DNA of 64,000 nucleotides from Cynocephalus volans (lineage: Eukaryota > Chordata > Mammalia > Dermoptera > Cynocephalidae). This document shows positions 33,908-56,472 of the stretch, piece after piece (within the stretch, counting starts at the first letter, position 1; the number at the start of each line of letters is the position of its first letter). Made by a program: the position numbers and the translations under genes. The stretch is taken from assembly GCF_027409185.1 (NCBI RefSeq), contig NC_084461.1:187586001-187650000 (forward strand), given 5' to 3'. Under the pieces are notes generated by a model that made no database searches, was not told where the DNA came from, and saw only the letters and a program-made list of their open reading frames with translations.

Positions 33908-36253
33908 GAGATCCAATCAAGATGGTGGAATAGCTGGTCCGCAGCGTCACTCTCTCCCACAAATCAACCAAATTTACAACTATAAAAATGTAACATCAGC
34001 CAAGCCGGGGCTGCTGGAGCTCAGGGGAAGAAGAAGAGAGACCTATGGAGTTCATGAAGGTGGGAGAAACTGCGATGAAAGAAAGAAAAAACTGCTCTGA
34101 GCATTTTGGGCCACGGCTGCTTTAAGGCTTGAGCTGCTGAGCGCATGGGGCAGGAGCTGGAAGAAGCTACAGCTGTGCCCTTCAGATGGAGTTACTTGGG
34201 GGCTACAGGGGAGAAGAGGGCCTTGGAGGCCCCCAGGACAGCAAGACCACTAATAGGGTTCCTGTGGACCCATGCAGTAGGGAGGAGCCAGAACAGCTGT
34301 GAAAGGGGAGCCATTCAGAGACCAGTGAGTCATCACAAGGTACCAGCACAGGGACCGTCCCATAGGAAGTGTTTGCAGCACGGGCGCTGGGGGCAATGTG
34401 CCCACCAGGGGAACACTGGCGCACAGCGAGGACAGCCGACCTGCCCCCTAGCCAGCACAGGACCACTCAGAGGAGACTGGTCAGGAACGCAGAATTGCAT
34501 GGGGTGCAGTTTGATGAAAAACTCAGGCCCAGATCAGAGATTCTACAGAACACAGGTCCATTGGGTCTCTGGAGAGCCGGAAGTACCTATAAGGTCAACC
34601 ATTAAACCCTGAGCTGCACAAAAAGTCTTCCCTAGGGAAACAGCAGCAAAGTAGCAATTTAAACAACCACACAACTCAAGTACTGGTTCCCACAGGAAGT
34701 TCCCCAATGTTAGAAGCAAAGGACAAAAAATTAGCTCTGGCCCAGGCACACCACCAGCACCTTGGGGCCTGCCTGGGAACTGGAGGCTTGGATCTGGGGA
34801 CCAGACCCCATTCCCACTTCCCAGCAAACTGTGCCAGTGCCTCAGGGCCAGCATGGGGACACAAGGCATAGAGAAGGGGACTGGACCCGCCTCCCACAAC
34901 CAGGCACACCATGCCAGCACCTTGGGGCCTGCCCGGGGACCCGAGGCAAGAAGAAGGGGAATGGACCTCTCTCCCACAACCAGGCACACTGAGCCAGCAT
35001 CTTGGGACCCGCCCAGGGACCCAGGGCATGGAGGAGACCGGGCCTCTCTCCCACAACCAGGCACACTGAGCCAGTGCCTTGGGGCCCACCCAGGGACCCA
35101 GGGTATGAAGTTGGGGACTGGACCACCCTCCCACAACCAGGTACAACATGCCAGCACCTCGGAGCCTGCCCAGGGACCCGGGGCATGGAGAAGGGGACTG
35201 GACCTTTCTCCCACAACCAGGCATACTGCACCAGTGCCTCAGGGCCTGCCTGGGTACCTGAGGCATGGAGGAGACTGGACCTCTCTCCCACAACCAGGCA
35301 CACCAAGCCAGTGCCTTGGGTCCCACCCAGTGACCCAAGGCATGGAGCCTGGAACCAGACCCTCCACCCACAACAAGGCACACCATGCCAGTACCTCAGA
35401 GCCCACCCAGGAACCTGAGGCAAGGAGAAGGGGACTGGACCTCTCTCCCACAACCAGGAACACCGAGCCGGCACCTTGGGTTCCACCCAGCCCAGAGACA
35501 TGCAGAAGGGGACTGGATCCTCCTCCCACACCAGGCACAAAATGCCAGCACCTCGGGGCCCACCTGGGTACCTGAGGCATGAAGAAGGGGACCGGACCCT
35601 CTTCCCACAACCAGGCACACTGTGCCAGTACCTTGGGGCCTGCCCAGGGACCCGGGGACATGGAGAAGGGGACTGGACCCCTCTCCCACAACTAGGCACA
35701 TGGTGCCAGTGCCTTGGGCCTGCCCATGGACCAGAGGTATGGAGAAGGGGACCAAACACACCCCACAATCAGGCATACCGCCAGTGCCAAGGAGCATGCC
35801 AAAAACAGCACCTCCAACCATGCAGATGGTCCGCCAACCACTGGAGTGCATTCACACAAGAGGAGTCACCAGCAGAGACAAAGAAAAGAAGAAGATGTCT
35901 CTTTCCACAAAACCCATTTCAGAGTGACAGAAGAAGCATCTGCTCTATGATAATATTGGGGGACCCAATCACACCTCTTAGCATTGGACAGATCATCTAG
36001 GCAACAAGTTAACAGAGTAACCATCATTCTTTCAGAAGAAGAGAAGAAATCTAGGGCAGTTAGAGGGGGGAGGGGGAGGGAATGGGGGAAGAGGAGAGGT
36101 TGGACAAGGGGCATAAAGAATAATTACGATTTGTAACAATATATATGCTAGTAATATTGATTTAATCAACATATCTCAATGTTCAACCCCAAAAATATGT
36201 ATAATCAATTTTGATTCAATAAATAGAACAAATTTTTAAAAATAAATTAAAAA
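33908..36253 (+). mobile_element. Composite VNTR retroelement, copy A (SVA-like, L1-derived)
   Basis: Modules in order: a 5' module (33908-34743) opening with an L1-type start 'aagatggtggaatagctgg'; a GC-rich VNTR (34744-35788) of about 13 units of 77-81 bp; a 3' part (35789-36253) that includes a fragment matching the L1 ORF2 endonuclease region (shares 'gacagatcatctaggcaa' with the full-length L1 here), a G-rich run and an AATAAA plus A-tail. A perfect 17-bp duplication 'aaaaaattgcagtgggg' flanks it (33891-33907, 36254-36270), showing L1-machinery insertion as one unit. It carries no coding capacity that I can support. The 5' module recurs in two other copies (49993 downward and 54907 upward). 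Confidence 0.88.
34744..35788 (+). repeat. VNTR of copy A: about 13 tandem units of 77-81 bp
   Basis: Unit boundaries marked by 'ccacaaccaggcaca' recur at spacings of 80, 77, 80, 80, 77, 80, 80, 77, 80 and 81 bp. Units share 'gccagcaccttggggcctg' and 'aaggggactggacc'. A 3-bp indel class (77 versus 80) alternates in a pattern of roughly every third unit, suggesting a higher-order repeat of about 237 bp. All frames stay open for long stretches because the unit composition lacks stops; this is not evidence of a protein. Confidence 0.93.
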
Positions 36254-36266
36254 AAAAAATTGCAGT

Positions 36267-36385
36267 GGGGCTGGCCAGTTAGCTAAGTTGTTTAGCTGGT
36301 CAGAGCACAGCCTTATACACAACACCAAAGTCATGGGTTCAGATTCCCGTACTGGCCAGCCAACCAAAAAAAAGAAAAAAAAGAT
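36267..36385 (+). mobile_element. tRNA-Ile-derived SINE split from its target copy by composite element A
   Basis: 'ggggctggccagttagctaa' head, small internal insertion, B-box 'gggttcagattcc', tail 'actggccagccaacc'. Its own duplication 'ttgcagtg'/'atgcagtg' (33896-33903 and about 36390) now spans copy A, which inserted at the SINE 5' end later. Confidence 0.75.
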
Positions 36386-37660
36386 GCAGTGATTATATTA
36401 ATTTATTTGGATATTTTGATGGTTAACATTGCTAACTTTAATAATAATCATTACAGAAGAGAACCCTGTCTCCCTGAAACTTTGTCCAGGTTTACTCCTG
36501 TGGTAATGAGAATCTTCTGTTTAAGTTAAAATTCAAGGGCTAAGCATCCCATCCCCAATAAAAGTTGGTAAAAGTCAAAATAAAGCTTTGTAATTCTCCA
36601 TCTATTTGAAAGTCACCACTTTGAAGTCTGCAAAATTTGAATTTCACACTGAAGTAAAAATTTAAAACATACTTATTTCAAGTCAAGTTTCCAAGTATAT
36701 GTAATAATATCACATCAAACATCTGCAGTAATGTGAAAACAACATTTCAGACATTCACCAATAGATATCACTGACAGAATCATATTTAGCATAAGCTTCC
36801 TGGCTCACAATGTAATAAATGTAGATTAAGTCAACTTTCCCCACCCTCTTTAAAAGTGCTGGCAGGATCAAGAAGACAATAAATAGGACTTAGCCTCATC
36901 CCCAAGATCGTAATCAACAAACACATTTATTAAAACCCTAATGGTGTGTGGTGCTATGCCATGCTAAATGATTCACAGAGAGAATTAGCTATATCTTGCC
37001 TCCCTCTCTAAAGTTTACAATCCAAGGCAGACAGGCTGACGCTCATACACATTTATGGCCAAACTGGACAGACACAATGAAATATGAACATTAAGTCAAC
37101 TGATAAATGAGCAAGGTAAACATTCAGAGATAGAGATATTCAGATGGCTGTGATAAGGAAAGTTGCCTTGAAAATTCCAATTTCAGGCTATGCAAGGTGA
37201 AGAAAAAATTAGTATTCTCCACCACCTCACTCATCTACAATCATATAAAAATACATGCGTCATAATTGTTCCCTAAAATGTCAACCTTTTGTCCATCTTC
37301 ATTCTAAAACTTTTATACCTTCTAAGTCACAATAATTGTAGTAATTTTTTTGTAGACCATGATTTTGAATGATACTCCCTAATACACATCTGACTGTGTC
37401 TTTGCTAAAATAAAATAGCCTTTTCTTTTGAGCACTGTTGCCAAAATTTTCAAAACAGCTCTTTTGACCTTGCGTTGAAATTTTTTTTTTGTTTCAACTG
37501 ACTCAACTCTATTTAATTCTTATCTCTTCCAATGCAAATTAACTCTTTAAAATGGCCTCTTTTATTTGAATAGCTAATTATTTCATCATTTGGCACTTGA
37601 AAAAAATACTTTCTAGTAAAGTAGGAAAAATCCTAGATTAGGTTTTTGGCCTTTCTTTGG
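36386..37660. other. Intergenic stretch, no gene recognised
   Basis: AT-rich DNA with a weak L2-like trace near 36945-37025. Nothing else was recognised. Confidence 0.6.
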
Positions 37661-37661
37661 G

Positions 37662-37745
37662 GGCTGGCCAGTACAGGGATGGAACCCTGGACCTTGGTAT
37701 TACTAGCACCATGCTTTAACCAGCTGAGCTAGCTGGCCAGCCCCC
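37662..37745 (-). mobile_element. tRNA-Ile-derived SINE (CYN-like)
   Basis: 'gggctggccagtacaggga', inverted B-box, 'accagctgagctagctggcc' at the far end. Confidence 0.85.
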
Positions 37746-39280
37746 CAGGTTAAATTTAAAACAGGGCAGAAGGATAGCCTTAAGAAAGGAACGTTATAGT
37801 ATTTGAGATACAGCATCTTGTTCAATAAGCCACAATTGGAGAAACATGTGCATGACCAATGCAGGAAACAGTTGCATTTGATCTTAAATTACTTATGAAT
37901 CTACTGTACTTTTAATTAATTATGATTAAGATATCGGCTATTTTGGCTTTTACATTCTTTTTTCCTGTATCAGTGGGGGCCATTTAGTTGCAAGTTACTG
38001 ACCCAAATATGCTTGAGTCAAAAAATAAAGGATGGAAAGTATTGACTCGACTGAACAGGCCAAGCTAGCAAAAATCCCTTAGGCCAAGCTTAATCTAGTG
38101 CTCTCACACTGGGACAGGGACATGATTTATTTTTCAGTTTCTCAGTTCCACGTTCTTCATATCGGTTACATTTTCAAGCAGCTTTCCCACTGAAATCTCT
38201 AGATGGCGGCCAGCAGCTGCAAGGTCACATCCTTTCTCATTCTTGTTCAGTGGGAAACAATTTAGACAAAAATCCAGGAAGCAGATCTGATTGCTCCTGG
38301 TTAGTCTAACTTGGGTCATGTGCCTACCTCTGGCCAGGGAATAAGAGATGAGCCACTGGCTGAAAATGGAGCCAATCCCACCCACTAACCACAGGACTGG
38401 GAAATTTGGGAATTCCCACCACATCTAAAGATTCTTTGATGGAGGAATCCATCCCTCAAGTTTTAGTGAGTTTTCTCTTCAACTGTTTATTTTGAAGTGA
38501 CACCCAAGGAACTTAGCATTTGTTCTTGACACTTTTATCTCTGGGTATAAATTTAAAGTCCCAAGGCCAAAAGCCAGAAATTCCAATACGTAGATTCAGA
38601 AAAACCCACGTTTCAAATCACTCTGAAAATTATCTTTGAAATGGTCTCAAATGCCCGGCTGAGTAATGTGGAGTTACTAAAATAGGCAAAGGGGTGCCAT
38701 CGAAAGTGTTAGTAGGTGAATTACATAATCCAAGTTTCTTATTTTTGTTTTTCTGTAAATGAATGACCCAACATTGCATTTTTCAGTTCATGGTACATTA
38801 AAGGGGGGGGAAATGTCCAGCTCTGCTGTAATCCCTGGTTTTCCAAAATTCTTGCCCAGCCTCTGAAGCACTTCTTTTCAAATCTTATTTCATATCTAAG
38901 AATAGAAATATCTTGAAGGGCTGATCTAATAGAAGGATTTTTTAGTTGTTTGATAGTGCTGTTCACCTCTACTCTTTACAGAACAGAGGGTAGCAAAAAT
39001 TAGGATGTCTTTCCAAATATATTAAACCTTTATTCACTATGGAATCACTCTCCCAGAGAAGTGAAAATTCTCTTTATGGCTATAAAGATGGTCACAGAGA
39101 CCAAAGTCTTAGTCTTCATGTTTTTTAATATTTTCTTTTTTTGTTATAAAAAATAAAAAATACATTAATACAAAATGAAAATACATTAATTGTGTAAAAT
39201 ATGGAAAAGCATAAAAAAGGAAATTAAAATCACCCACAATTCCATGGCTTAAAAATAACTATTGCTAGCATGTTGATGTA
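37746..39280. other. Intergenic stretch with an unnamed old repeat
   Basis: 38090-38430 ('agatggcggccagcagctgc', 'gggtcatgtgcctacctctg') resembles a widespread mammalian repeat that I cannot name with confidence. The rest is unremarkable and no gene is seen. Confidence 0.5.
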
Positions 39281-39283
39281 TAG

Positions 39284-39385
39284 CTTTTTTTTTTTTTGGC
39301 AGCTGTAGGTGATGGGGATCCTAATGCTTGACTTTGGTGTTATCAGTACCACCCTCTAAACAAGTGAGCTAACAGGGCAGCCCTG
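39284..39385 (-). mobile_element. tRNA-Ile-derived SINE (CYN-like)
   Basis: T-tract, 'ggcagctgtaggtgatgggg', inverted B-box 'gatcctaatgctt', end 'gctaacagggcagccc'. A diverged copy. Confidence 0.8.
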
Positions 39386-39404
39386 ATGTACAGCTTTTGA
39401 CAAC

Positions 39405-39560
39405 TACAATAGCAATAATTAACATTTACTGAGTCCTTTAAATATGCTAAGCACTATGCTAAGCATTAGAACATGGATGTTCTCATTCTATTTTATTTTT
39501 CTAATCACTCCATGACGTGCATGCTATTATTACATGCATTTTATAGAGAAAGAAAAATGA
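39405..39560 (-). mobile_element. MIR-like SINE
   Basis: 'acatttactgagtcctttaa', 'gctaagcactatgctaagca' and 'tattattacatgcattttat' in the order of a reversed MIR. Confidence 0.55.
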
Positions 39561-39599
39561 TTTTTTTCTATGCATGTTGATCCATTTGTTAAAATTTGG

Positions 39600-40085
39600 T
39601 ATTGTGGTGTACATATTATTTTCTGTTTAAAAATATATCATGAACTCCAAGTTATTAAATATTTTCTGTAAAATAATGTGGCTGCACCTGTAATCCTTTT
39701 TATAAATGAACCATAATTTATGTCACTTAGTCACTATTGATGGACTTTAGATAGCTTTCAATTTTTTGTTTTAAAGAATACTTCAATTAACATTGTATTC
39801 ATAAATCATCATGAATATTCATGATTATTTTATTAGATTAAATCTGAGAAAGAGGATAATGGAGTCAAAGATATTAGCATTTTTTATGGCTTTGATGAGC
39901 ATTACCAAATTTGTCCAGGAAAAGGTTGTATCAACCTGCATTGCTATCAGTTTTGTAAAGAAAGGACCTGATTCTCTGCACCCTGATTAGCACTTACTTA
40001 TCAATTTATTTAAACCTTGCCTAATATTATATCTAAACTATGGCATTTTCCTCGTAGTGATTTTCATTTCTTTTATTTTTGGTAG
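39600..40085 (-). mobile_element. Old L1/HAL1-like fragment
   Basis: 'aatgtggctgcacctgtaat', 'gtgattttcatttcttttat' and similar landmarks suggest an ancient L1-class 3' region in reverse orientation. Identity is low. Confidence 0.45.
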
Positions 40086-40123
40086 AGTTGAACATTTTTT
40101 TCTTTTTCGTTTTCCGCCCATCT

Positions 40124-40615
40124 TTATTAAGATATAATTGACAAATAAAACTCATGTATTTTCAAGGTGTATACCATGATGTTTTGATACACGTGTACAT
40201 GGTGAAATGATCAAGCTAATTAACATATCCATCACCTCATATAATTACCAGTTGGTTTTGTTTTTGCTTTTTTTTTTTGCTTTTTTTGGAGTGGGGATCC
40301 TAACCCTTTACCTTGGTGTTGTAAGGCCATGCTGTAACCAACTGAGCTAACTGGCCAGTCCCATAATTATCATTTGTGTGTGTGGTGGAGGGAGAACACT
40401 TAAGATCTACTTTCTTAGCAAATTTCAAGTATGCAATACGTTATTATTAATTAGAGTTACCACACTGTATTTTTGATCTCTAGAACATATTCATCTTATA
40501 ACTGAAACTTTCCTTTGGCCAAAATCCCCCATTTTTCCCTCCCTCTGGCCCCTGTTGATTAACTTTCTACTCTCTGTTTCTATGAATTTGACTTGTTTAG
40601 ATTCCACATATCCAT
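40124..40615 (-). mobile_element. Old L1 3' UTR, split by a SINE
   Basis: 'ttattaagatataattgaca' to 'aattaccagttgg', then, after the SINE at 40258-40362, 'cataattatcatttgtgtgt' to 'tgtttagattccacatatcc'. This order is that of an L1MA/MB-class 3' UTR in reverse. Confidence 0.7.
40258..40362 (-). mobile_element. tRNA-Ile-derived SINE inserted in an old L1
   Basis: T-rich start, 'gagtggggatcctaaccctt', end 'gagctaactggccagtccc'. A short flanking repeat 'ataattaccag'/'cataattatca' brackets it. Confidence 0.8.
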
Positions 40616-40741
40616 AGTATTTGTCTTGAGCTGAACATTTTTTCTTCAAGCCGAATGTTTTAGTGTCTTCATATATTTTAGGGACAAATGAGACCTGTAA
40701 TGGATAAATATGCCTTGAAAATTGACTAGTTTGGACCTGTT

Positions 40742-40836
40742 TCTTTTTTGTTTTGTTTTGGCAGGGGGCGGGTATGGAGATCCAAACCTTTGGCTTTGAT
40801 GTCAGCGCTAACCAGCTGAGCTAACCAGCCAGCCCT
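40742..40836 (-). mobile_element. tRNA-Ile-derived SINE (CYN-like)
   Basis: 'ggcagggggcgggtatggag', inverted B-box, 'gagctaaccagccagccct' end. An internal deletion lies in the anticodon-arm region. Confidence 0.8.
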
Positions 40837-41129
40837 GAACTGACTGTTGAATATGAAAAGGTAGCTCTTATAATGTCAAATCTTAAATAAGTATATTTTC
40901 AAATATCTTTTCAAATATATTGTATGCAGATCTCTTAAGAACTCTTTTTTTCTTTTTCCTTGTTTTTTTTTTTTTTGAACGATCTGATGAATATATCAGA
41001 CCCTAGTTCTTGATATGTAAAATTCCTCTATCCTGCTAATGGAATTTGCTTTTCCAAGAAAATAGGTACCTTCAACAAGCAGCTCAGGGCTGGGCTATGC
41101 TAAACTCTAAGGGCAGCAGGAAGAGTTTA

Positions 41130-41680
41130 AAGAATTAGTAATTCCACTCCTGGGAATATACCAAAAAGAAATGACAACAGGTACTCAAACAAATATCTGT
41201 ACATGAAAGTTCATAGCAGCATTATAAACAATAGCCACAAGACAGATTTAATGCAAATGTCCATCAACTGATGAATGGATTAAAAAATTGTGGTATATAC
41301 ACAGAATGGAATATTATTCAGCCATAAGAAAAAATAAAGTACTGATACATGTTGTAACATAAATTAACCTAGAAAACATTATGCTAAGTCAAAGAAGCCA
41401 GACACAAAAAGTCACACATTGACATATAAGTCCATTTATATGAAATGTCCAGAATAGGTAAATCCATAGATACAGAACAAATTGGTGTTTTCCAGGGGAT
41501 GGGGGGGGGTGGGGGTGGCGAATGCAGAATAATTGCTTAATGGGTATGAGGTTTTCTTTTTCTTTGGGGGTAATGAAAATGTTTTGGAACAAGGTAGAGG
41601 TTCTGTTTACACAGCATGGTAAATATGCTAAATGTTACTGAATTGTTCACTTTAAAATGGTTAAGTTCATGTTATGTGAA
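41130..41680 (+). mobile_element. Old L1 3' fragment
   Basis: 'attccactcctgggaatata', 'gttcatagcagcattataaa', 'gaatggaatattattcagcc', then a 3' UTR with a G-rich run (41500-41515) and 'ttcactttaaaatggttaag'. 5' truncated and frames broken. Confidence 0.8.
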
Positions 41681-41682
41681 TG

Positions 41683-42118
41683 TATTAGTCTGTTTCTGTT
41701 GCTTATAACAGAATACCTGAAACTGGGTTATTTATGAAAAAGTGAGATTTATTTCTTAAAGTTTTGGAGGCTGGGCAGTCCAAAGTCCAGGTAACATATT
41801 TGGCAAAGGCTTTCTTGTTGGGAACTCTCTACGGGGTCCGGTGGCAACGAGGGTATCGCATGGTGAGAATGGGCTGAGCAGGAGACAGCCAAACTTCTTA
41901 CTTTCTCCTTATAAAGCCATCAGAAGCACACCCAGAATCACCCATTAAACCACCAATGGATTAATCTATTCAGAAGGGTACAGTCCTTGAAATCTAATCA
42001 CGTCTTAAAAGCCTAACTTTTCAATTACCATAATAGGATTCTCCACTCTCTTAACACTGTTACAATGGAAATTAATTTTCAAACACATGAAATTTTGGGG
42101 GACACATTTAACCCATAG
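41683..42118 (-). mobile_element. MaLR-type LTR, reverse orientation
   Basis: It begins 'gtattagtctgtttctgttg', includes 'gaatacctgaaactgggtta', and the far end reads 'tttgggggacacatttaacc'. Same class as 44934-45350. Confidence 0.65.
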
Positions 42119-43374
42119 CAGTGAATTTCATCTCAATTTTTAAAAAGCTAAAAAACTAAAATAAAAAATTAGCATTTTCTTTCATTTTGGTCTTGTGAAG
42201 TTTGACAAGCTCTTCAAAATAGTGGAGACAAAAATAACATTCAAATTATGTTCTGTTCCCTAGCATGCTCCTACTTTCAATGCATATTTAATCATTAGTA
42301 ATTACATGTGATCAGTAATTATTGGTATAATGCTTTCTGACTTAATTTCCTCCTGAATGCTTTCTCTGAAAAAAAAAAAAAAGTAAATCATGCAGTTTAT
42401 GTTCTTAAGATAATTTATGCTTAGAAAGGAAGAATCAGATCCAGAAGTTTACCATCTTTTTCCTATTACTCTAGAGTCACTATAGAGGAGTTAAGAGATT
42501 AGCTGAAAATTTACATTCCAAAATGGATTCATTATCAACAGGGGGAAAAATGAAATGTTCAATCATCTCTGCAAGATTGGTGCTTGGCATCTGTTTGCCA
42601 AATGCATTTTTCTATCTTCATATTTGTACCGAGTTTTTTGTTTTGTTTTTTTTCCATGAGGCAGGAATATTTATCATTTGTGCAAGAGATATTGAGAATC
42701 TGGTATATAATTTTGAAGGTTTCCAAATCTGTTGGGGAAAGCCCCTGGGTTTGGGTATTAATCTCCACCCCCTCTTTATCCTCCACACTGTCTGCCCATT
42801 TCTCAAATCTGGTCTACTATCTGCCCACCCTGAGTGATACTGAAAAAGGATGTTCAGAAAATACTTTGGAATGAATGAATAAATGATCATAGATGTGCCA
42901 ATGAGTGGCAAGGACTGATGCACCATTCATTCCAAGGAAGAAGAAATCATTCCAGCTGGGGTGGTCAGAAAAGGTTTCAGCCCAAGTAAGTCTAGGCTTC
43001 TGGAGGAGATCCTGAGATAACCTGTCCCATTGAGTGTCTCCAGCCTTGTTTTTACAGTTGTCCTAACGGCTTCTCCTGCAGACACTTGAGACCTAATCAC
43101 ACTTCAGGTAAAAACAAAGAAACTCATTGCCTTATCCTTCAAATTGGCACTGTCTCCCTCAGGAGACTTGTATATCACAGCTGGTGAAAGGGCTCCCTTA
43201 CCCCTAGGCTTGAATTTGGGGTGTAATTTCATGTTCTTCTTGATCGTCACTTACCCCTTTGTAGTATCTGTCTTCAAAATATCTCTATGAGTGCCCGCTT
43301 TCCTTCCATTTTGGTCTTTTAAAAACATTCACTTTATAAAAGTAATGCATATTCTTGTAGAAGCTTGGAAAATG

Positions 43375-43375
<1 letters not shown>
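42119..43375. other. Intergenic stretch, no gene recognised
   Basis: Short open frames around 42520-42930 occur on both strands without start context, splice sites or similarity I recognise. No repeats were identified with confidence. Confidence 0.6.

Positions 43376-43377
<2 letters not shown>

Positions 43378-43407
<30 letters not shown>
43378..43407. repeat. (AT)n microsatellite
   Basis: About 14 units of TA, directly abutting the palindromic element that follows. Confidence 0.9.
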
Positions 43408-43410
<3 letters not shown>

Positions 43411-43487
43411 GGTGCTTCAAAAAGTTTGTGGAAAAATAGAATTAAAAGATAATATGAATATTTCCATAAACATCGTGAAGTACCCTC
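43408..43487. mobile_element. Palindromic mariner-like MITE, about 80 bp
   Basis: 'gagggtgcttcaaaaagttt' at the left matches the inverse of 'tttccataaacatcgtgaag...accctc' at the right, so the element folds into a near-complete hairpin. It sits at the end of an (AT)n run, consistent with TA-target mariner-type insertion. No family name is assigned. Confidence 0.65.
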
Positions 43488-43502
43488 TTATGTGTGTGTT
43501 AT

Positions 43503-43887
43503 GTGCTATGGACTACATGTGCTGTGGACTGAATTGTGTCCCCTCCCTTCCTGCCAAATTCATATATTGAAGCGCTAACTGTATTTGAAGATAGGGCTTT
43601 GAGGAGATTATTAAGGTCAGATAAGGTCACAGGGGTAGGGTCCAGATCCAAAGGATTGGTGGCCTTCTAAGAGGAAGAGGAGAAAGTGATCTTTCTCCCC
43701 ACCATGTAAGGACACAGGGAGAAGGTGGTCATCTGCAAGCCAGGAAGAGAGTCCTCACCAGAAACTGAATAGACCAGCAACTTGACCTTGGACTTTCCAG
43801 CCTCTAGAACTGTGAGAAAATAAATTTTTATTGTTTAAACTACCCAGCCTATGGTATTTTGTCATGGCAGCCCAAGCTGACTAATAC
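43503..43887 (+). mobile_element. MaLR-type LTR (MLT1-like)
   Basis: 'atgtgctgtggactgaattg', 'gataaggtcacaggggtagg', 'caccatgtaaggacacaggg', 'cctctagaactgtgagaaaa' with a poly(A) signal, end 'agcccaagctgactaataca'. Confidence 0.75.
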
Positions 43888-44560: not shown

Positions 44561-44564
44561 TAAA

Positions 44565-46215: not shown

Positions 46216-46444
46216 AGAGAAATTAATGTAGTTTTGTCTATTCATTAGCAAAGGACTTCAAATGTGGACAATGATAATTTAGATCAGATCATGGGATAAC
46301 TCAATATGAGACCCAGTCTTATCCCCCAACTGCCCACCGTGCCCCCCCCCACCCGCGGTCCCATCTATAGCATTGTACCCTGGATTTTAATAGCGGAGAA
46401 CATTTGGGCTGTTCATCAGCTTTGTGTAATGGGACCTTACTTTT

Positions 46445-46592
46445 CAAGGTATGGTCAGATGCCAGCAGCCTCAATATCACCTGGGAGCTTGTATTCACAA
46501 TCCCAGGCTGCCTCAGACCAACTGATTCAGAATCTGTACTTTAACGGGATTTCCAGGTCTTTTATTTGCACTTTAAAGTTTGAAAATCACAG
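46445..46592 (+). mobile_element. hAT-type fossil (MER5A-like)
   Basis: 'aaggtatggtcagatgccag', 'cctcaatatcacctgggagc', 'accaactgattcagaatctg', 'aaagtttgaaaatcac' follow the MER5A order as I recall it. Confidence 0.7.
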
Positions 46593-46718
46593 TTATCGGA
46601 ACACCGAAGTAGTACAATCTTATCCCACTCTAGGCAACCCACTATATAAATGCCATAATTTCTGTTTTCTACAGAAAATGCATTACAGCATGAACACTTG
46701 TTAACAAGTTCCCATTGG

Positions 46719-46816
46719 CCTTTTTTTTTTTTTGCAACTGGCCAGTAAGGGTATCTGAAACCTTGACCTTGGTGTTATAACACCATACTCTAACCAATGA
46801 GCTAACTGGCCAGCCC
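46719..46816 (-). mobile_element. tRNA-Ile-derived SINE (CYN-like)
   Basis: T-tract, 'gcaactggccagtaagggta', inverted B-box, 'ctaactggccagccct' end. Confidence 0.85.
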
Positions 46817-47449
46817 TAGTCTTTAATTTGCAATCTCCCTTAAGGCATTGGAAAATGTATCCACTATCAAAAGATTTGCTCATTATTTTTGAGGAACTCC
46901 GCTTTTGGCTAGAATAGGAGTATTGATCCAAATCATTCACCAGAGGCCAGAAAAAGTTAATATAGCTTCCAAATAAGCAAGGGAGATTGCCTTCTTATGT
47001 GAGATGTGGCAAGCATATTCAAGAAACTACATGTTGTAGAGTACCACTTCTGAATAGAATTCTAAATGCATGATTTTAAAGAGGCTGTTCCCTCTGGAGT
47101 ACTCCACCTCTTCTCTGTGTTTTGGGTCTGTCTGTGGTACTTCCTCAGTACCCCAAAGTTGAAAATCAAACCATACCCATATTCTAACTAATTTTGTGGT
47201 AAAATTTGCTTGGCTTAACTTTCTCTCAACAAAGATCCAATAACTAATATATTTACCAAATATTTATTGTGTGCCAATTACATGCTAGATGTCACTATAT
47301 GTGTGCAGATTCAGCAGTGACCAAAGGTAAAGGAAATATATCAAAATGACATAGAATTTATCTCTGGGTTGTGGAATGATAGTCAATTTTGCTATTTCTG
47401 CTTTATCTTTTCCTCCTTTCCTATATTTTTCAAGTTTTCTACAATAAAC
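46817..47449. other. Intergenic stretch, no gene recognised
   Basis: AT-rich DNA. A possible poor L2 or L1 trace near 47240-47330 ('tatttattgtgtgccaatta') is too weak to name. Confidence 0.55.
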
Positions 47450-47462
47450 ATGTATTACTTTT

Positions 47463-47610
47463 GGGCCGAGCCCGTGGCGCACTTGGTAGAGTGCTGCGCT
47501 GGGAGCGCGGCGACGCTCCCGCCGCGGGTTCGGATCCTATATAGGACTGACCGGTGCACTCACTGGCTGAGTGCCGGTCACGAAAAAACGACCAAAAAAA
47601 AAAAAAAAAA
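47463..47610 (+). mobile_element. GC-rich tRNA-derived SINE of the second family (young copy)
   Basis: Head 'gggccgagcccgtggcgcac', 'ctgcgctgggagcgcggcg', B-box 'gggttcggatcc', 'tatataggactgaccggtg', tail 'gtgccggtcacg', then an A-tract. A perfect 13-bp duplication 'atgtattactttt' (47450-47462, 47611-47623) flanks it. The tRNA part is closer to tRNA-Ala or another GC-rich tRNA than to tRNA-Ile. Confidence 0.9.
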
Positions 47611-47683
47611 ATGTATTACTTTTATAATATGAAAATTATATATAATTATTTAAACCTTTCTTTTAATAAATTCAGTGCATGTC

Positions 47684-47783
47684 AGTGGGTTTTTTTGGCA
47701 GCTGGCTGGTACCGGGATCCAAACTGTGACTTATGTGTTAATAAGGCTGTGCTCTAACCAACTGAGCCAAATGGCCAGCCCCA
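47684..47783 (-). mobile_element. tRNA-Ile-derived SINE (CYN-like)
   Basis: 'ggcagctggctggtaccggg', inverted B-box, 'aaatggccagcccc' end. Confidence 0.85.
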
Positions 47784-48120
47784 ATGCTCACTATCAGTCT
47801 TATCTGAAAGTGAGATAGTGATTTTTAAAACTGTTAAACTATTATGCTTACTGTACAGTTTTTCTACTGCAAAAACTACGTAAGTATATTTCAATCAAAA
47901 TATAAAAGGTAAATATTAAAATGTACCTGGTAAAACCAGTTAAAAAGTGTAAGTTGACCTTATGGCTTTTCCTTGTGTGTGCAAGAAGGAACTAAAGAGA
48001 CAGATTTTTTTTGCGTGTGCCTTGTTAATTTGCAATAACACTACACGTGTGCAAATACACATATATGCAGTCATAATTATTGCAAGCTGAAATAGAATAT
48101 ACTCCTGAAAATTTTAACTT

Positions 48121-48217
48121 TCTTTTTTTTGGCAGCTGTCCTGTACAGGGATCTGAACTCTTGACCTTGGTGTTATTAGCACCATGCCCTAACCAAATGA
48201 ACTAATCAGCAAGCCTG
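48121..48217 (-). mobile_element. tRNA-Ile-derived SINE (CYN-like)
   Basis: T-tract, 'ggcagctgtcctgtacaggg', inverted B-box, 'actaatcagcaagcct' end. Flanks 'gaaaattttaactt' and 'gaaaaatttaactt' are its imperfect target duplication. Confidence 0.85.
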
Positions 48218-48463
48218 AAAAATTTAACTTCTAAGTGTTTTTTTTTTTTTTAATTTAGCTATTTTTTTTAAGTAGTGTTTTTTATTTTGTAGGAAATCTT
48301 TTTGTTTTTATGATTCCCCAGCAAAGTTTCTAGTGGTTGTTAGCTATGAGGGTGATGCGCTTTCCCCCCAGGCATGGACTGGAATGGCTGGTCTCTTCTG
48401 AGCCAGGTCATAGTGGTCATACCTCCTTTGGCAGATGGGGAAGCCTCTTTGAAATGCCCTTGG

Positions 48464-48603
48464 CCCTTGTGGCTCACTCGGGGAGTGCGGCGCTGGGAGC
48501 GCAGCGGCACTCCGGCCGCGGGTTCGCTCACTGGCTGGGCGCGATGCACGCGACACCAAGCCAAGGGTTGCGATCCCCTTACCGGCCACAAAAAAGAAAA
48601 AAA
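48464..48603 (+). mobile_element. Chimeric tRNA-derived SINE
   Basis: The left part ('cttgtggctcactcgggga', 'ctgggagcgcagcggc', 'ggccgcgggttcg') resembles the GC-rich family. The right part ('acaccaagccaagggttg', 'gatccccttaccggccac') is of tRNA-Ile type. Flanks 'aaatgcccttgg' and 'aaatgctcttgg' form a near-perfect duplication, so the chimera moved as one unit. Confidence 0.8.
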
Positions 48604-48649
48604 AAATGCTCTTGGGTGCTGGGCTGGGATGCTCAGCTGCATTTTTTTA

Positions 48650-49993
48650 AAAAATTAATCAATCAAATTTTTTCTTTACATTCTAAGATGTTGCAGATCC
48701 GTTGGGGGGAGGGAGAAGGGGGAGGGGGAGGGGAATAGGGTGGGAGGAAGAGGAATGAGGGGGGGCATGGTCGAAGCCTGTGGCACCCCCCTCATTCTGG
48801 CAGGGGATCCCAGGGGGCTTGCGGCGATGGCTTGGCTGGATAGTGTCTTGTCTGGATGGGTACTTTAGGGGGCTGTGTGACTGAGGTCCTCAGCCCCCCT
48901 CAACCCAGGAGCCCAGGACACTTCTGGTGGTGACCTGGTGGCTGTCTGCTGGATGCCGACATCAGGGAGGTGTGTCTGAGGCCCTCAGTCCCCATCCGCC
49001 CCAACTTAGGAGCCCAAGGGGCTTCCGGTCCTAGGCTTTATAAGTGTTCTTTGGTGGTGTTAGACCTTTACTGGTTAATATTAGAATTTTGTCTCTGATC
49101 TGTGGTTTTTTTATTTTTTCTTTCAGTTCTGTGTTGGATTATTTGCTATTCCCACCACTTAAGCTCTGCACTGGAATTAATTTGTTGTCCTTTGGTTACT
49201 TCTAAAATGGGGGAACTTCCTGTGGGAACCAGCATTTGAGCCCTATGGTTGAGCTAAACTGCTGCTTTGCTGCTGATTCTCTAGGGAAGGCTTTTTGTGT
49301 AGCTCAGGTTTTAATTGTTGACCTTATATGTACTTCCAGGTCTTGTTAGATCTGATACCCCTGGGTTGTGTGGAAACTCTGGTCTGGGTCTGTGTCTTTT
49401 CAGCAAACTGCACCCCCTGCAGTTCTATATTCCTGACCAGACTCCTCTGAGTGGTCTTGCACTGATTGGGGGCGATCGGCTGTCTGTGCTGTGCCCCCGT
49501 GGTCCCCCAGTGGCCTGTGTCCCCCACTGCTCACACTCCAAATACTTCCCATCAGACAGGCCATGCACCAGTCCCTTGCAGTAACTCACTGGCTTCTGAG
49601 TGGCTCTTTTTTTCAGTTGTCTGTGTCTCTTCATTCCTCTGTGGGTCCACAGGAACTCTGTTAGTGGTCTTGTTGGCCTGGGGGCCACCAAGGCTCTCTT
49701 CTCCCTTGCAGCCTCCAAGCAATTTCATATGAAGGACACAGCTATGGCTTTTGCCAGCTCTTGCTCCGTGTGCTCACCAGGCCAGCCTTGAAATGGCCAG
49801 GGCTCAAAATGGTCAGAGTGGTCGTTTCTTTCATTGTGACTTCTCCTGCCTTCATGAACTAAGTCTCTCTTCCTCTTCCCCTGAGCTCTCGCAGCCCCAG
49901 CTTGGCAGTTCATTGCTTTTTACTGGTTGTAAATCGGTTGGTTGTGGGAGAGGGTGACACTGGGTACCATCTATTCTGCCATCTTCATTGGAA
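48650..49993 (-). mobile_element. Composite VNTR retroelement, copy B
   Basis: On the minus strand it starts near 49993 ('aagatggcagaatagatggt') and runs through the same 5' module as copies A and C to about 49215. It continues with a bridge that includes 'gtaaaggtctaacaccacca', two to three GC-rich units of about 100 bp (49040-48775), a pyrimidine-rich run, and 'gcaacatcttagaatgtaaa' followed by an A-rich end. The bridge, VNTR and 3' end match copy C, not A. No clear target duplication is seen at these limits; the true 3' end may lie further left (about 48237). Confidence 0.8.
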
Positions 49994-50047
49994 GTCCAAA
50001 AAGTTTAGCTTTTAAAAGTATAACTTACAATAAAGTGTACAAATCTT

Positions 50048-50208
50048 TTTTTTTTTTTTGACCAGTAAGGGGATTGCAACCCTCAGCATGGTGTCATTCG
50101 CACCACACTCAGCCAGTGAGCGCACCAGCCATCCCTATATAGGATCTGAACCCACAGTCTCAGCACTACCAGAGCTGCACTCTCCCAAGTGAGCCATGGG
50201 GCCAGCCC
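50048..50208 (-). mobile_element. Dimeric tRNA-derived SINE
   Basis: Reversed two-unit structure: 'gaccagtaaggggattgcaa', joint 'ccatccctatataggatctg', end 'gagccatggggccagccc'. A perfect 17-bp duplication 'taaagtgtacaaatctt' flanks it (50031-50047, 50209-50225). Confidence 0.9.
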
Positions 50209-50225
50209 TAAAGTGTACAAATCTT

Positions 50226-50980
50226 AAGTATACAACTCAATCTAATTTTTAAAAATTGAGATAAAATTCACATAACATAAATTCACCATTTTAAAGTGTA
50301 CAATTCACTGGCATTTGGCATATTTATAATAAGGTGCAACCATCACCTCTGTCTGACTCCCAGAACATTCTCATCAACCCAAAAGGAAAACCTGTACCCA
50401 TTAAACAGTCACTTCCTAGTCCTCCTTCTTCTATCCCTTGGAAACCACCAATCTGCTTTCTGGCTCCATGGATTTGCCTGATCTGGACATTTCATATAAT
50501 GGAATCATACAATATGTGGCCTTTTGTGTTGACTTGTTTTGTTTCTGAGGTGTTCCATGTTGTAGCATGTGTCAGAATATCTTATTCCTGAATAATATTC
50601 CATTGTATGGATATTCCACATATTGTTTTTCCTTTCATTGGTGATAAACATTTGAGTTGTTTCCACTTTTTGGCTATTATAAATAATGCTGCTATGAACA
50701 TTTGTGTAAAATATTTGTGTACACATATCTTTTAATTCTCTTGGTTGTATACCTAGGAGTGGAATTGCTGTGTCAATTTTATGTTTGGAATCTAAATTCT
50801 ATGTTTAGCTTTTTGAGGAGCTAACAAACTTTTCTGTAGCACTGCACCACTTTACATTCCCACCAGCAATGTATGAAGGTTCCAATTTCTCCACATACTT
50901 GGCAACACTTGTTATTGTCCATCATTTTTATTTTAGCCATCCTAGCAGATGTTAAGTGGTATCTCATTGTGGTTGTGTCT
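50226..50980 (-). mobile_element. Old L1 3' end, reverse orientation
   Basis: 'ttgagataaaattcacataa', 'ggacatttcatataatggaa', 'aataatattccattgtatgg', 'attcccaccagcaatgtatg', 'taagtggtatctcattgtgg' follow the reversed ORF2-tail/3' UTR order. Frames are broken. Confidence 0.8.
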
Positions 50981-50984
50981 GTTT

Positions 50985-51140
50985 ATGATCTCTCCATGTC
51001 TAAAATAGACTGTGACTTTAGTGAGAGCCTGAGCGGAATTTATTACCACTATTTTACCAGTGTCTAGCTAAGTGCCTAGTACATACTAGGTGATAACAAA
51101 AGATTTGGTGAACAAAAGAATTGACAACCACTGTTATTTT
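50985..51140 (+). mobile_element. L2 LINE 3' end fragment
   Basis: 'taaaatagactgtgacttta', 'gtgcctagtacatactaggt' and 'aagatttggtgaacaaaag' match the L2 terminus in order but with many changes. Confidence 0.5.
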
Positions 51141-53615
51141 TTGTGTAAACCCCCCAGACATCTTCTTTTTCACACATAACTTTTGCCAGGTGTGGTCAGA
51201 AATACCTTTAAACATAAAGCAGTTGATAAAAGGAATCAACTTTGGCATTGAAGTTGATGAATCCTGTTTTTATTTCATAAATTCCTCATGTAATTATAAT
51301 ATTAGTTATAAAAAAAAACTCTAAAATTTCTTCTGATGAATGTTTCAAGGGGTGGACAGTGTATAGCCAGGCCAGAAATATATAAAAAAGGCGAAAGATT
51401 TATACGTTTTGAAGAGAAACAAAGAGTAGGCCAGAAATATATAGAAAATATATTCGTCCAACTTTAATGTACTCTTAACAAATGAATCTTTTCTCTGGGA
51501 TAATGAGTTCCTTCTCTGAAAGTTTTCTCCCTTCTTAAAAAATGTCTGTTCTTTCATTCATTCATTGACACAAATTAAGACCCTGAAGAAGAGTTTCCTT
51601 CCTTTCTTCTCTACACACAATGAATAAAATACCCCTTTGAAGAACTTAAAATGAGCAGAATATTAGAGAAGTTATGTGGCAACTTAATTGCTTTTGTGGT
51701 TCAAGGCCATTAAGAACCTGAAAATAAAGAAAGAATCATCCTATTTTTATGATTGAATAAATAATGCTCAGAAGTTCCTGAACCTTATGGGAAATATGAC
51801 TTCAAATGCTTTGGCTAGGAAACATGAAGCCACTTTGAATTTTTCAATAAATCTTGATGAGGACTGGTTAATCATTTATTCAAAATCCAGTTGGGCTTTA
51901 GATCGAGTATATATTATATCCCTGAGCTCTAGTAGAAATGGGGTGTTTTTAAAGTCTGAATAAGAAATGCTACGGATATGTTTTCAATTTGTTCTGATCC
52001 ATCTCTGAGACTTTGCAAAGTTAAGTTTTACTTTGATTTCTAATATGAGGAAGTTTTATTCACATCTGGTCCCAATAAGATGAGAGATATATCTCTCACA
52101 GGAAAGAATTCAGGAAGAATGAGGATATGAATCTAAAATGATGAAAGTTAGCCCATAAATCTATTTATGTAATTGTGAGATTGAAAACACAAAAATCAGT
52201 CATATCTATTCCTCTTAGATCCAATCCTTCTCTTTGCCTAAGGAAGCTGAGGTTAAAGAATGGACTGCAAGGGGATGAGAAGGGACTGCATGGAGTAGGC
52301 TGGCTGCACTTTTGGCAATTCTTCATCTTTCCCTGTATTCAGGCTTTTCGTCATGTGAATTTGCAGACACTTTTCCTAAAGAGGCAGAGTCTATTCCCGA
52401 CCCTTGAATCTGGGCTGGTCTTATGCTTTAGCCAATAGAATGTGGCAGAAGTATTGTGGTAAGCTCACCTCTGAGCTTAGGACCCAACAGATCTAGGTGC
52501 TTCCATTTATTTTCCTGCACCTCTGCCTTCACCACATGAGCATTATCAGAGGTAGACCGCTAGAGGAAGAGAGACACACTGAGAGGGCCACCCACCCTGT
52601 CCCATCATATCCATTCCTGATCAGCCAGTCAGCCAGCCCTCAGACCTGTGATCCAGCCCCTGACAAGATCAGCAGGGCTCCATAGCCAACCATGCTAGAT
52701 GTATGAGCAGTCATGCTTATTGTTATAGTGCTGAGGTTTTGTGGTTGTTACACAGCATTATTGTGACAGTACAGAACTGATGCATTGCTACTATTTAGCA
52801 CTACATGTTCATCAGACATTACAGGTCCAGAAACTTTCAAACTGAAATGTATGCAACTTCTACAAACCAAGGATTTAACATCTTGCAAAGAAGGAAATGA
52901 GCAAATATAGTTTCGACTTTTACTACTGAAAGTTGCCACCTCTACCAGAAACTACTAGTAAATATTGAGGGTAAGTCAAGGTGTCCACAAAGAAATAAAA
53001 AAGGCAAGTGTAAAATGCATTCATACACTTGTGAAAATTATGTAATGTATGTTATCTTTCACTGATTAGCACTAGGAGATATGGTAAACGGGTTCAACCA
53101 AGCAAATGATGAGAGTTGACAATAGAAATGTAAACTCAACCCCAATTAATGAATTTGTCCATTGATCCTTTCAGCTGCAGATGGTGAGGTCTATTTTGGA
53201 TAAAGCAGGAGGCCCAGAGACAACAACGAGAGTTCTTTTCCCCCAGGAGCGAGGTCAATTTAGTTCGTGCACTTTGAGAAGATGGAATGTTACCTTGGGT
53301 CTGGAAATACTTTGTGATGTTTGTCACGCTAGTGATCAAGTTTCTCCAGCAGCTCAGTTTAAAGTTACCCAGAACTTTCTGTATCGACTGAGTCAGAAGA
53401 CTCTGCATGACTCTCTCAAAGTCATGGCTCATTTTACTCAGTAGAAGATTTTTTTTCCCCTCTTCGCTGGATTTTCTTGTGTTATCAAAAGAGAGCGTTT
53501 ATACATGCACACAGAAGTGGCTCACACATTGCATTTCCCTTGTTCAGAGGAATCAGAGCAATTATCCATTCCCTCTAACATGATGTCTTAGAATTGCACA
53601 ACGAACATGGTTAAG
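51141..53615. other. Intergenic stretch, no gene recognised
   Basis: 52320-52770 ('tctgggctggtcttatgctt', 'gaggttttgtggttgttaca') resembles an old mammalian MER/LTR-class repeat that I cannot name. The rest (51150-52300, 52780-53615) shows no repeat or gene that I recognise. Confidence 0.5.
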
Positions 53616-53630
53616 GTTTGTCATTTTCAG

Positions 53631-53776
53631 TTTTTTTTTTTTTTTCCCCTTGACTTGGTGTTGTCAGCACCATGCTCAGCCAGTGAGCAAACCGGCTATC
53701 CCTATATAGGGACCTGAACCTGTGGCCCTGGTGTTATCAGCACCACACTCTCCTGAGTGAGCCACGGGCCGGCCCC
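53631..53776 (-). mobile_element. Dimeric tRNA-derived SINE
   Basis: 'cttgacttggtgttgtcagc', joint 'ctatccctatatagggacct', end 'gagccacgggccggcccc'. Flanked by 'cattttcag' on both sides. Confidence 0.85.
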
Positions 53777-54109
53777 ATTTTCAGACATTTTAGATCTGAT
53801 TAGCAGCAGGTGAAGCATGCATTCTTTGATGCTGCTGGTTTTCCCCTCTGTGGTGGGAGCTGCAGATGATGGGTTAGCACTTAGCTGCTGGTGAGCAACT
53901 GTCTAATGAGCAATGGGGAAAATTGGCTGTCCTTGGCACAATTGTACTTGGGGCATATGGTGTTTAGAGATACATAAAATCACAAATATATTCATGCATT
54001 GCTCAGAATAACTAAAAATTTGATAATAAGTATTCAGTTCTTTCATAATCATGACATTGCTGAATATGATTCACGATTAAATAGCAAGCTAGATTCCTGA
54101 TCCTCATTA

Positions 54110-54650
54110 AAATGTAGAGTCCACCTCATTCACTGCTGCTGGGAATGTGAAATGGTGCAGCCACTTGGGAAAGTCTGGCAGTTCCTCAAAAAAGTTAAAT
54201 AGAATTACCATATGACCCAGAAATTCCACCCCTAGGTATATAACCAAGAGAACTGAAAATATATGTTCACCCAAAAACATGTATACAGCTGTTCACAGCA
54301 GCACCATTCATAATAGCCCAAAGGTGGGAACAACCCTTATGCCCATCAACAGATAAATGGATAAACAAAATGTGATATATCCATAAGATGGAATCATAGG
54401 CATAAAAAGGAATGAAGTACATGTTCCAACATGGATGAAACTCAGAAATATTATGCTAAATGAAAGAATCCAGATTAAAAAAGACCACATATTGTGAAAC
54501 CCCCTCTAAATGAAATATCCAGAATAGGCAAATCTGTGAAGACAGAAAGCAGATAGGGGTAGAGAAAATGGGGAGTGGCTGCCAATAGGTATGGGGTTCA
54601 TTTTGAGGATGATGAAAGTGTTCTGGGATTAGATAGCAGTGATGGTTGTG
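54110..54650 (+). mobile_element. Old L1 3' fragment
   Basis: 'gctgctgggaatgtgaaatg', 'attaccatatgacccagaaa', 'aacatggatgaaactcagaa', 'aaatatccagaataggcaaa'. Same region as the other old L1 ends here. 5' truncated. Confidence 0.8.
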
Positions 54651-54906
54651 GCTTGTTTTCTCTGGCTCCTGAGTCAGCTGGCTGGGTTGAACTAACAGGA
54701 GACTCCAGAGGGAAACCGGAAGGTGTGAGAAAGGGAGAAGCTTTGGTATTTCTTGCCCTTTCTCTCTGCCTGGAGCAACATTCTCCAGAAGTACCTTCCT
54801 CTGCAGCTCTAGCTCCCACCCAGTGACTCTAGCTTGCACCCACCTCTTTTCTTTGTTCATTCCCTCCTGGGAGTGGCAGCATCTTCTCGTTAAAATAGCT
54901 AGTCTC

Positions 54907-56472
54907 AACTTCCGGTCACGATGGTGGAATAGACGACCCCCAGCATCACTCTCTCCCACAAACCAACCAATTTACAACTACAAAAAAGCAAGAACAGTCA
55001 AGCTGGGGCCGCTAGAGCTCAGGGGAAGAGGAGGAGAGACCTATGGAGTGCATGAAGGCGGGAGAAGCCACAATGAGAGAAAAAAGGTCGCTCTGACCAT
55101 TTTGAGCCCTGGCCCCTTCCAGGCTGGAGCTGCTGAGTGCACAGAGCAGGAGCTGGCAAAAGCTGCAGCTGTGCCCTTTGAATGGAGTTGCTTGGAGGCG
55201 ACAGGGGAGAAGAGGGCCTTGGTGGCCCCCAGGCCAGCGGGACCACTAATAGGGTTCCTGTGGACCCACATAGGAACAAGGGGCCACAACAACTGAAAAA
55301 AAGGAGCCACTCAAGAGGCTGGTTGAGTCATTGCAAGGGACTGGTGCATGGCCCATCCAATGGGAGGTGTTTGCAGCATGGGCAGTAGGGGAGATGGGCC
55401 CATGAGAGAACACTGGGGCACAGCAAGGACAGCTGATCTGCCCCCCAGTCAGCATAGGACCACTCAGAGGAGACTGGTCAGAATATAGAATTGCATGGGG
55501 TGCAATTTGATGAAAAGACTCAGGCCCAGACCAGAGTTTCTAAACAACCCAGGTGCACCAGATTTCACTAGACCTGGAAGTACCTATAAAGTCAGCCATT
55601 AAAACCTGAGTCGCACAAAAAACCTTCCCTAGGGAATCAGCAGCAAAACAGCAATTTATCTCAACCATACATCTCAAGTACTGGTTCCACAGGAAGTTCC
55701 CCCATTTTAGAAGTAAGCAAAGGACAACAAATTAGTTCCAGCTCAGAGTTTAAGGGGTGGGAACAGCAAATAATCCAACACAGAACTGAAAGAAGAACAA
55801 AAAACCACAGAGAAGAGAAAAAATTCTGTTATTAGCCGGTAAAGGTCTAACACCACCAAAGAACACCTATAACACTTAGAAGGACCAGAAGTCCCCTGGG
55901 CTACCAAGCCAGAAAAGGGGGAGGGCCCAGGCCTCAGCAGTGCCCCTGGGCACCTGCAACCAGTCCTGAGGGCTGGGGACTAGGGCCTGGGCCACAGCCC
56001 CCTGACCTGCACAACCACCCCAGCGATGACCACTGAGATGCTGCAGCAAGTGCCCTGGGCTCTCCTGAGCCAGGGCGGTGGGGGACTAAGGGCCTCGGAC
56101 ATGCCCCCCCCAACACGGGCAACCAACCCAGTGACAACCACCAAGCCTCAGCAAGAAGGGCCCCAGATTCCCAAGCTGGGGGTGTGGGGGGTGAGGGCTT
56201 TTGCCACACTCCCCTGACATCTGCACCCAACCCAGCAATGACCAAGCTGCAGCTGGAAGCCCCCTGGTCTCCCCTGTGGAAATGAGGGGAGTGCCACAGG
56301 CCTCAATTCCGCCCCTCCTCCTTCCTCCTTCTTCCATCCCATTTCCTTCCCCTTTCTCCTCTCCCCCTCCCTCCCAACTGCTCCACAGCAACATCCTAGA
56401 ATGTAAAAAAATAATAAATTACATTTTCTTTTAAAAAATAAATAAGAAATATAGAAATAAAATGAAATAAAA
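54907..56472 (+). mobile_element. Composite VNTR retroelement, copy C
   Basis: The 5' module (54907-55740) starts 'aacttccggtcacgatggtg' and aligns with copy A throughout ('tctctcccacaaaccaacca', 'agaagagggccttggtggcc', 'gcatggggtgcaatttgatg'). Then come a bridge (55741-55915), about 3-4 GC-rich units of about 100 bp (55916-56290), a pyrimidine-rich run (56305-56375), 'gcaacatcctagaatgtaaa' and an A-rich tail. A perfect 16-bp duplication 'taaaatagctagtctc' (54891-54906, 56473-56488) shows a single L1-type insertion. No open frame is conserved with the other copies. Confidence 0.88.
55916..56290 (+). repeat. VNTR of copy C, about 100-bp units
   Basis: Repeated landmarks 'cacctgcaacc', 'ccccagcgatgaccac'/'cccagcaatgacca' and 'ggggactagggcc'/'ggggactaagggcc' recur every 95-105 bp. 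This unit differs from the 77-81 bp unit of copy A but shares GC-rich words with it. Confidence 0.75.

Follow-up and report, generated by a model that had tools for sequence, protein, structure and literature searches.

The window analysed here, a 64,000-nucleotide stretch of the genome of the colugo Cynocephalus volans (contig NC_084461.1, positions 187,586,001 to 187,650,000), contains three composite retroelements, termed A (33908-36253, + strand), B (49995 to ~48640, - strand) and C (54907-56472, + strand; all positions are those of the window). The three elements very probably represent two related retroposon families, A-type and B/C-type, which are devoid of L1 genes and depend on L1 proteins acting in trans for their copying. 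This reading derives from the common structure and junctions of the copies, target duplications that exceed a cross-pairing control, A-rich ends and arrays of variable length.

A shared head and two sets of downstream modules

A, B and C have in common a 5′ module of about 830 bp, termed the head, as a preliminary description of the window had claimed, and its identity between the copies is 76-82%. Pairwise, the module aligns at 81% identity between A and C (842 columns) and at 77% between A and B (830 columns); in the head alignment the values are 81% (A-C), 76% (A-B) and 82% (B-C). The head of A, which opens GAGATCCAATCAAGATGGTGGAATAG, lies at 33908-34741 (+ strand), as delimited by pairwise alignment and, for its first 793 bases, by a genome probe. 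The head of B occupies 49173-49995 (- strand), of which a probe covering 49180-49995 matched genomic places, and that of C, defined by alignment, extends over 54907-55741 (+ strand). Past this module B and C remain alike, each having an extension, then ~95-105-bp repeats and an end rich in pyrimidines, and A diverges. The alignment of B with C spans 1255 columns (77% identity), and these two elements therefore have more in common than the head.

In A, the predicted GC-rich variable number tandem repeat (VNTR) was found directly after the head as 12.8 copies of an 80-bp unit (34742-35752, + strand), an array whose length differs among copies of the element. It is followed by a tail of three parts, all on the + strand. 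The first (35753-35948, limits approximate) resembles the end of an L1 5′ untranslated region (UTR) just upstream of open reading frame 1 (ORF1); the second (35950-36021) is a scrap of L1 ORF2, from the endonuclease part, similar to window positions 28391-28318 (- strand); and the third (36022-36253, start approximate) is L1 3′ UTR-like, with a G-rich purine tract, AATAAA and an A-rich tail, and has matches at loci L014 and L042. In B, the extension, about two ~95-bp repeats, a pyrimidine-rich tail and an A-rich end occupy 48641-49172 (- strand). The corresponding region of C consists of the extension and ~105-bp repeats, 2.9 copies according to Tandem Repeats Finder (TRF), at 55742-56255, and a pyrimidine-rich 3′ module with an A-rich tail at 56256-56472 (both + strand). 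The treatment of A, B and C as three copies of a single family is thus ruled out: the shared head stands, but B/C and A differ downstream of it, in both VNTR and tail.

A is flanked by an exact 17-bp repeat (33891-33907 and 36254-36270, + strand) and C by an exact 16-bp repeat (54891-54906 and 56473-56488, + strand). The perfect target duplications initially reported for these two elements are therefore located at their exact ends. B displays just an 8-bp A/T repeat at the element ends, and no convincing duplication; its minus-strand orientation was correctly assigned, and its limits are corrected here from ~48650-49993 to 49995 and ~48640.

The A-type family is dispersed through the genome

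Further copies were sought in the 2.81-Gb assembly (130 contigs). The samples described below comprise those copies that most closely resemble A, B or C, and the candidate totals are first-look, unscored figures rather than copy numbers. A probe consisting of 793 of the 834 bases of the A head yielded 7962 first-look candidates. All 40 places that were scored matched near full length, the 39 besides A at 89-91% identity. Of these 39, 20 were fetched as loci of 9.5 kb each, giving 21 A-type copies with A itself.

The order of head, GC-rich 80-bp VNTR and A tail is kept in 20/20 fetched loci, none of which contains a match to ORF1 or ORF2 between head and tail (tblastn, with the proteins of the L1 in the window as queries). 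Across the 21 copies, array length spans 3.0-22.8 units and G+C content 63-65% (TRF, some arrays being only partly covered). In fuzzy matching that allowed up to 5 or 4 edits, both internal junctions of the tail were present in every one of the 21 copies, and the junction of head and VNTR in all but L024. A 67-bp stretch of the first part of the tail is missing from A; among the other 20 copies it is intact in 18, and the remaining two keep 66 and 57 bp of it.

Of the 21 copies, 15 are bordered by a perfect direct repeat (8-18 bp) that ends ≤4 bp from the 5′ end, although the 9-bp duplication of L017 is doubtful. When the 5′ and 3′ flanks of different A-type copies were cross-paired (n=420), duplications of at least 8 bp were seen in 17 pairs, compared with 15/21 for a copy's own flanks. 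The corresponding values are 4/420 versus 13/21 at a threshold of at least 10 bp, and 1/420 versus 8/21 at one of at least 12 bp. The search returned many dispersed loci with A-rich ends, target duplications and VNTRs of variable length. These dispersed copies, their junctions and their duplications support the earlier proposal of a non-autonomous VNTR retroposon that inserts as one unit with the hallmarks of L1-type retrotransposition.

The A tail is a fixed L1 mosaic

A profile of the A tail located its origin. Profile positions ~7-263 match the DNA directly upstream of ORF1 at L039-L043 (66-82 bits), and a match to ORF1 follows in 5/5 of these. Positions 245-335 match inside ORF2 in L014, L018, L022 and the window L1 (26-35 bits), and positions 337-553 match sequence beyond ORF2 in L014 (59 bits) and L042 (47 bits). 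As the three parts match L1 in L1 order, the A tail corresponds to an L1 minus ORF1 and nearly all of ORF2, of which only about 75-90 bp remain; ORF1 is not kept. The tail is a fixed mosaic of 5′ UTR end, ORF2 scrap and 3′ UTR, whose breakpoints did not differ among the copies examined. The preliminary description had recognized an A-tailed 3′ module of variable type; the A-rich ends and the variation of the 3′ ends hold, but it had missed that the 3′ module of A is derived from L1.

The preliminary description had also named, as the case that would speak against it, that A-C are just randomly deleted L1s. As the tail of A derives from an L1 with an internal deletion, A does move partly towards that case. 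The deletion is not random, however, since the same junctions occur in 21/21 copies, and random internal deletion of ordinary L1s is ruled out by this identity.

The B/C-type family

The C tail probe, which spanned the array, gave 6474 first-look candidates, and all 40 scored places matched, 39 of them at 81-84% identity. The B head probe gave 10485, and again 40/40 scored places matched, 39 at 82-86%. Seven further C copies fetched as loci have the same layout as C, with a nearly constant distance of ~505-524 bp between the start of the extension and the start of the tail. Of these copies, 4/7 have an exact repeat of at least 8 bp no more than 4 bp from the 5′ end (a count made without a cross-pairing control).

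The extension typical of C follows the head in each of 20 sampled B-like heads. Among eight B-like 3′ regions, the common tail was detected by profile in six (L117, L119, L121, L122, L123 and L124); in L120 the last bases of the tail were recognized by eye, and in L118 there was an array match only. The distance from head to tail is 390-601 bp in seven of the eight copies, and the B/C array therefore also varies.

No L1 sequence was detected in the pyrimidine-rich, A-tailed end of B/C-type elements. The possibility that the C tail is the end of an L1 5′ UTR was rejected, as the only match was one of 17 bp in C itself and the C profile found nothing in L1 5′ UTRs. The two families meet at L031 (1-2200), where a C-type element that is missing its first 61 head bases directly adjoins the end of an A-type element whose array amounts to about one unit. 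This arrangement suggests a nested, tandem or template-switch product.

Relative age of the two families

The mean Kimura two-parameter (K2P) distance of the 21 A heads to the sample majority is 5.8% with all sites counted and 3.5% with CpG sites left out. In eight C-type copies the values are 9.4% and 8.2%, respectively. At substitution rates of 2.2-4.5 x 10^-9 per site per year, the range given in the consulted excerpt of PMC4198772, these distances correspond to rough ages, for sampled copies that are the closest ones to A and C, of ~8-27 million years for the A-type and ~18-43 million years for the C-type. On these distances the B/C-type looks older than the A-type.

The head, the arrays and L1 5′ UTRs

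The head was initially labelled as an L1 5′ UTR. Its opening, AAGATGG..GAATAG, presumably resembles an L1 start. The label was nevertheless not borne out at 58 L1 places, comprising all 40 places of one search and 18 further places of another, and including two near-identical pairs (L040/L041 and L058/L071). Eighteen places (5+5+8) were read continuously upstream; for the other 40, a single 111-bp stretch was sampled, which lies ~500-610 bp upstream of the match. A head next to L1 was found by profile at 0/58 sampled places, a search that a highly diverged head, or one placed farther upstream beyond a long array, would escape, and the window L1 carries none; its 5′ UTR has no match to the head of A, B or C. 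Relatives of the head were likewise absent at E<1 from 229,531 bases of other DNA in which the elements were masked.

The A array, at the sampled distance upstream of the L1 5′ UTR end, was detected by profile at 0/58 places save for a weak match at L055. The 111-bp stretches are below 50% G+C in 37/40 places, and the array therefore seems not to extend there; L061, L070 and L073, at 50-57%, are less clear. Where the 5′ UTR end of an L1 is similar to the A tail, the adjoining upstream DNA appears G+C-rich and repeat-like by eye, and TRF reported arrays with units of 67-101 bp in 5/18 of the continuously read L1s (L040, L041, L045, L050 and L055). The continuously read L1s seem to end in or near this G+C-rich, repeat-like stretch. 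The array may stop reverse transcription, or the natural start of the L1 may lie within it. L040 and L041 (contig C3, ~8.83 and ~8.77 Mb) are near-identical duplicated loci. Only the flank of L041 matches the young L1 5′ UTR (93% over ~453 bp), and an L1 may therefore have inserted in one of the two duplicates.

The repeat units of A and C show no detectable relation (235/500 shuffles were as good), and neither the A unit (71/500) nor the C unit (461/500) is significantly similar to the L1 unit, taken from L045. With default filters the A array profile matched no L1 5′ UTR. With filters off there were weak matches only, to L055 (E 3.7e-5 in a small search and 7.2e-4 in a second search, in which no reversed control matched) and, marginally, to L051 (E 0.15). 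The position of the array is common to the A-type and the related L1s, and common descent of the arrays themselves, though weakly supported, is plausible.

Alternative explanations

These data bear on whether head and array are foreign to L1. It is conceivable that head plus VNTR belong natively to an L1 lineage as its 5′ UTR, with no fusion of foreign modules. In that case the A-type would be a HAL1-like derivative of this L1, deprived of ORF1 and of the greater part of ORF2, and the B/C-type would stem from an early-polyadenylated transcript that comprised the 5′ UTR alone. The succession of VNTR, 5′ UTR end, ORF2 scrap and 3′ UTR is indeed that of an L1, the closest L1s have G+C-rich DNA at the equivalent place, adjoining the 5′ UTR end on its upstream side, with TRF arrays in 5/18, and the L055 match to the A array (E 7e-4), if weak, is in keeping with such an origin, as are the presumed L1-like AAGATGG..GAATAG opening of the head and a 17-bp match between the end of C and the window L1 just before ORF1, which was reached in 1/300 shuffles, several tests having been made. 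Other results speak against it: neither head nor A array was detected by profile at the sampled distance in any of the 58 places, the weak L055 array match apart, the 229,531 bases of other DNA held no relative of the head at E<1, the window L1 5′ UTR had no match to the head, and the similarity of the A unit to the L1 unit was not significant. A native 5′ UTR is thus a serious possibility, but a rather doubtful one. It is extremely improbable that the three elements are L1 fragments without mutual relationship whose repeats arose by chance, or that they reflect local segmental duplication. A is partly L1-derived and L1 debris is common here, but the same modules and junctions recur on many contigs, in differing flanks and each with its own target duplications.

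Several observations weigh against two gene-less families copied in trans, or against the history proposed for them below. By the rule used here the target duplication is unclear in 6/21 A-type copies (L013, L014, L015, L021, L024 and L028). The C sample was unable to show array variation, because its probe spanned the array. Neither the source of the head nor that of the B/C 3′ module was identified, and the order of fusion would follow from rough age and the shared head only. The A tandem array is traversed by stop-free frames of 306 codons (34655-35575, + strand), 193 amino acids (+ strand) and 308 codons (34842-35768, - strand), which are taken as a by-product of the GC-rich repeat. Finally, L026 (5382-5901) contains a 5′-incomplete A-type-like copy, array plus tail (tail 5471-5901), that is ~33% diverged in a rough alignment and carries the first tail junction. 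The deletion mosaic therefore predates the sampled A copies and seems to have spread in more than a single wave.

Proposed mechanism and origin

If the two families are copied in trans, transcription by RNA polymerase II would start from the head, polyadenylation would follow the AATAAA close to the 3′ terminus, and target-primed reverse transcription would be carried out by L1 proteins provided in trans. Array length may change by slippage or unequal exchange. The A-type may have been born when a head of the B/C-type joined an internally deleted L1. More broadly, it is tentatively proposed, with a likelihood approaching but not reaching an even balance, that an SVA-like VNTR retroposon arose independently in the colugo lineage, in which a non-L1 head served as a transferable launch module that founded the B/C-type and later joined a gene-less L1, which kept its own 5′ UTR array, to give the younger A-type. 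Were this so, the modular logic of SVA, LAVA, PVA and FVA would be a repeatable outcome of L1 biology.

Comparison with known retroposons

SVA elements are flanked by target duplications and end in an A-tail. The colugo elements are, like SVA, non-autonomous and built of several modules, with a central, variable GC-rich VNTR, target duplications and an A-tail, and would likewise be mobilized by L1. Consulted excerpts of PMC4432496 describe SVA, LAVA, PVA and FVA as having a common CT-hexamer/Alu-like 5′ region and a central VNTR; in SVA the repeat units measure 30-50 bp and the 3′ part stems from an endogenous retrovirus, and in LAVA the 3′ part includes an L1 fragment. By these descriptions the colugo elements differ from SVA in their 830-bp head, their 80- or ~105-bp repeats and their L1-derived or pyrimidine-rich tail. 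CT hexamers were not found at the 5′ end of any of the 21 A-type copies or of the C copies. As in LAVA, PVA and FVA, the 5′ part is common to the families and the 3′ ends differ, and the L1 fragment of LAVA has a counterpart in the L1 tail of the A-type. In contrast to the gibbon families, which by the same excerpts have one VNTR in common, the head is common here and the VNTR apparently is not. The published descriptions thus support the parallel with SVA and LAVA that was drawn initially, including the statement that the modules differ. The same excerpts call VNTR composites specific to hominoids, and SVA2, their stated ancestor, was studied in macaque and gibbon (PMC4432496). The colugo elements are SVA-like in build and apparently independent, being set apart from SVA and LAVA by description and not by sequence comparison. 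No description of them was among the matches listed from term searches of open-licence papers (titles and abstract starts).

Two other groups of elements invite comparison. HAL1 elements retain ORF1. The A-type tail resembles HAL1 and other gene-losing L1 derivatives in being an internally deleted L1 that was amplified as a family, but differs in retaining neither ORF1 nor ORF2 beyond the remnant described above. The 5′ UTR of mouse-type L1s contains tandem monomers; the A-type resembles them in its tandem GC-rich units, and some related L1s here likewise have such units in their 5′ part. Unlike the mouse-type monomers, the A-type array sits downstream of a long head, and the units of the related L1s measure 67-101 bp (TRF).

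An independent family would allow comparisons that test why an RNA mobilized by L1 would gain from a GC-rich VNTR, and whether new retroposons generally arise through exchange of the tail behind a common head. As the colugo is a close relative of primates, its elements could also provide insertion markers and a natural contrast for the repressors that target SVA.

Other features of the window

The window L1 is near full length and occupies 24731-31500 (- strand, ends approximate). Its frames and tblastn matches identify it as L1: the ORF1 frame, of 340 amino acids, lies at 28999-30021, and ORF2 is split over two overlapping frames, 26700-28832 and 24985-26730. Its ORF segments are 98.8-99.6% identical to those of the L1 at L018, and recent L1 activity is therefore suggested. 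A young L1 family is present in the genome, and an element such as the window L1 could serve as helper.

At gathering scores, Rfam returned only three matches in the window, all of them to tRNA. ARAGORN reported tRNA-like matches at 547-624, 37665-37738, 58594-58666 and 62778-62852, of the types Ile, Thr and Val, and three of the four were also found by Rfam. They are probably tRNA-derived short interspersed elements (SINEs); tRNA-Ile-like SINEs were recognized in the window by eye, and ARAGORN gave a tRNA-Ile match. SINEs of this type are in keeping with a colugo (Dermoptera). A 51-bp tandem duplication (2.0 copies, 98% match) is located at 5783-5886.

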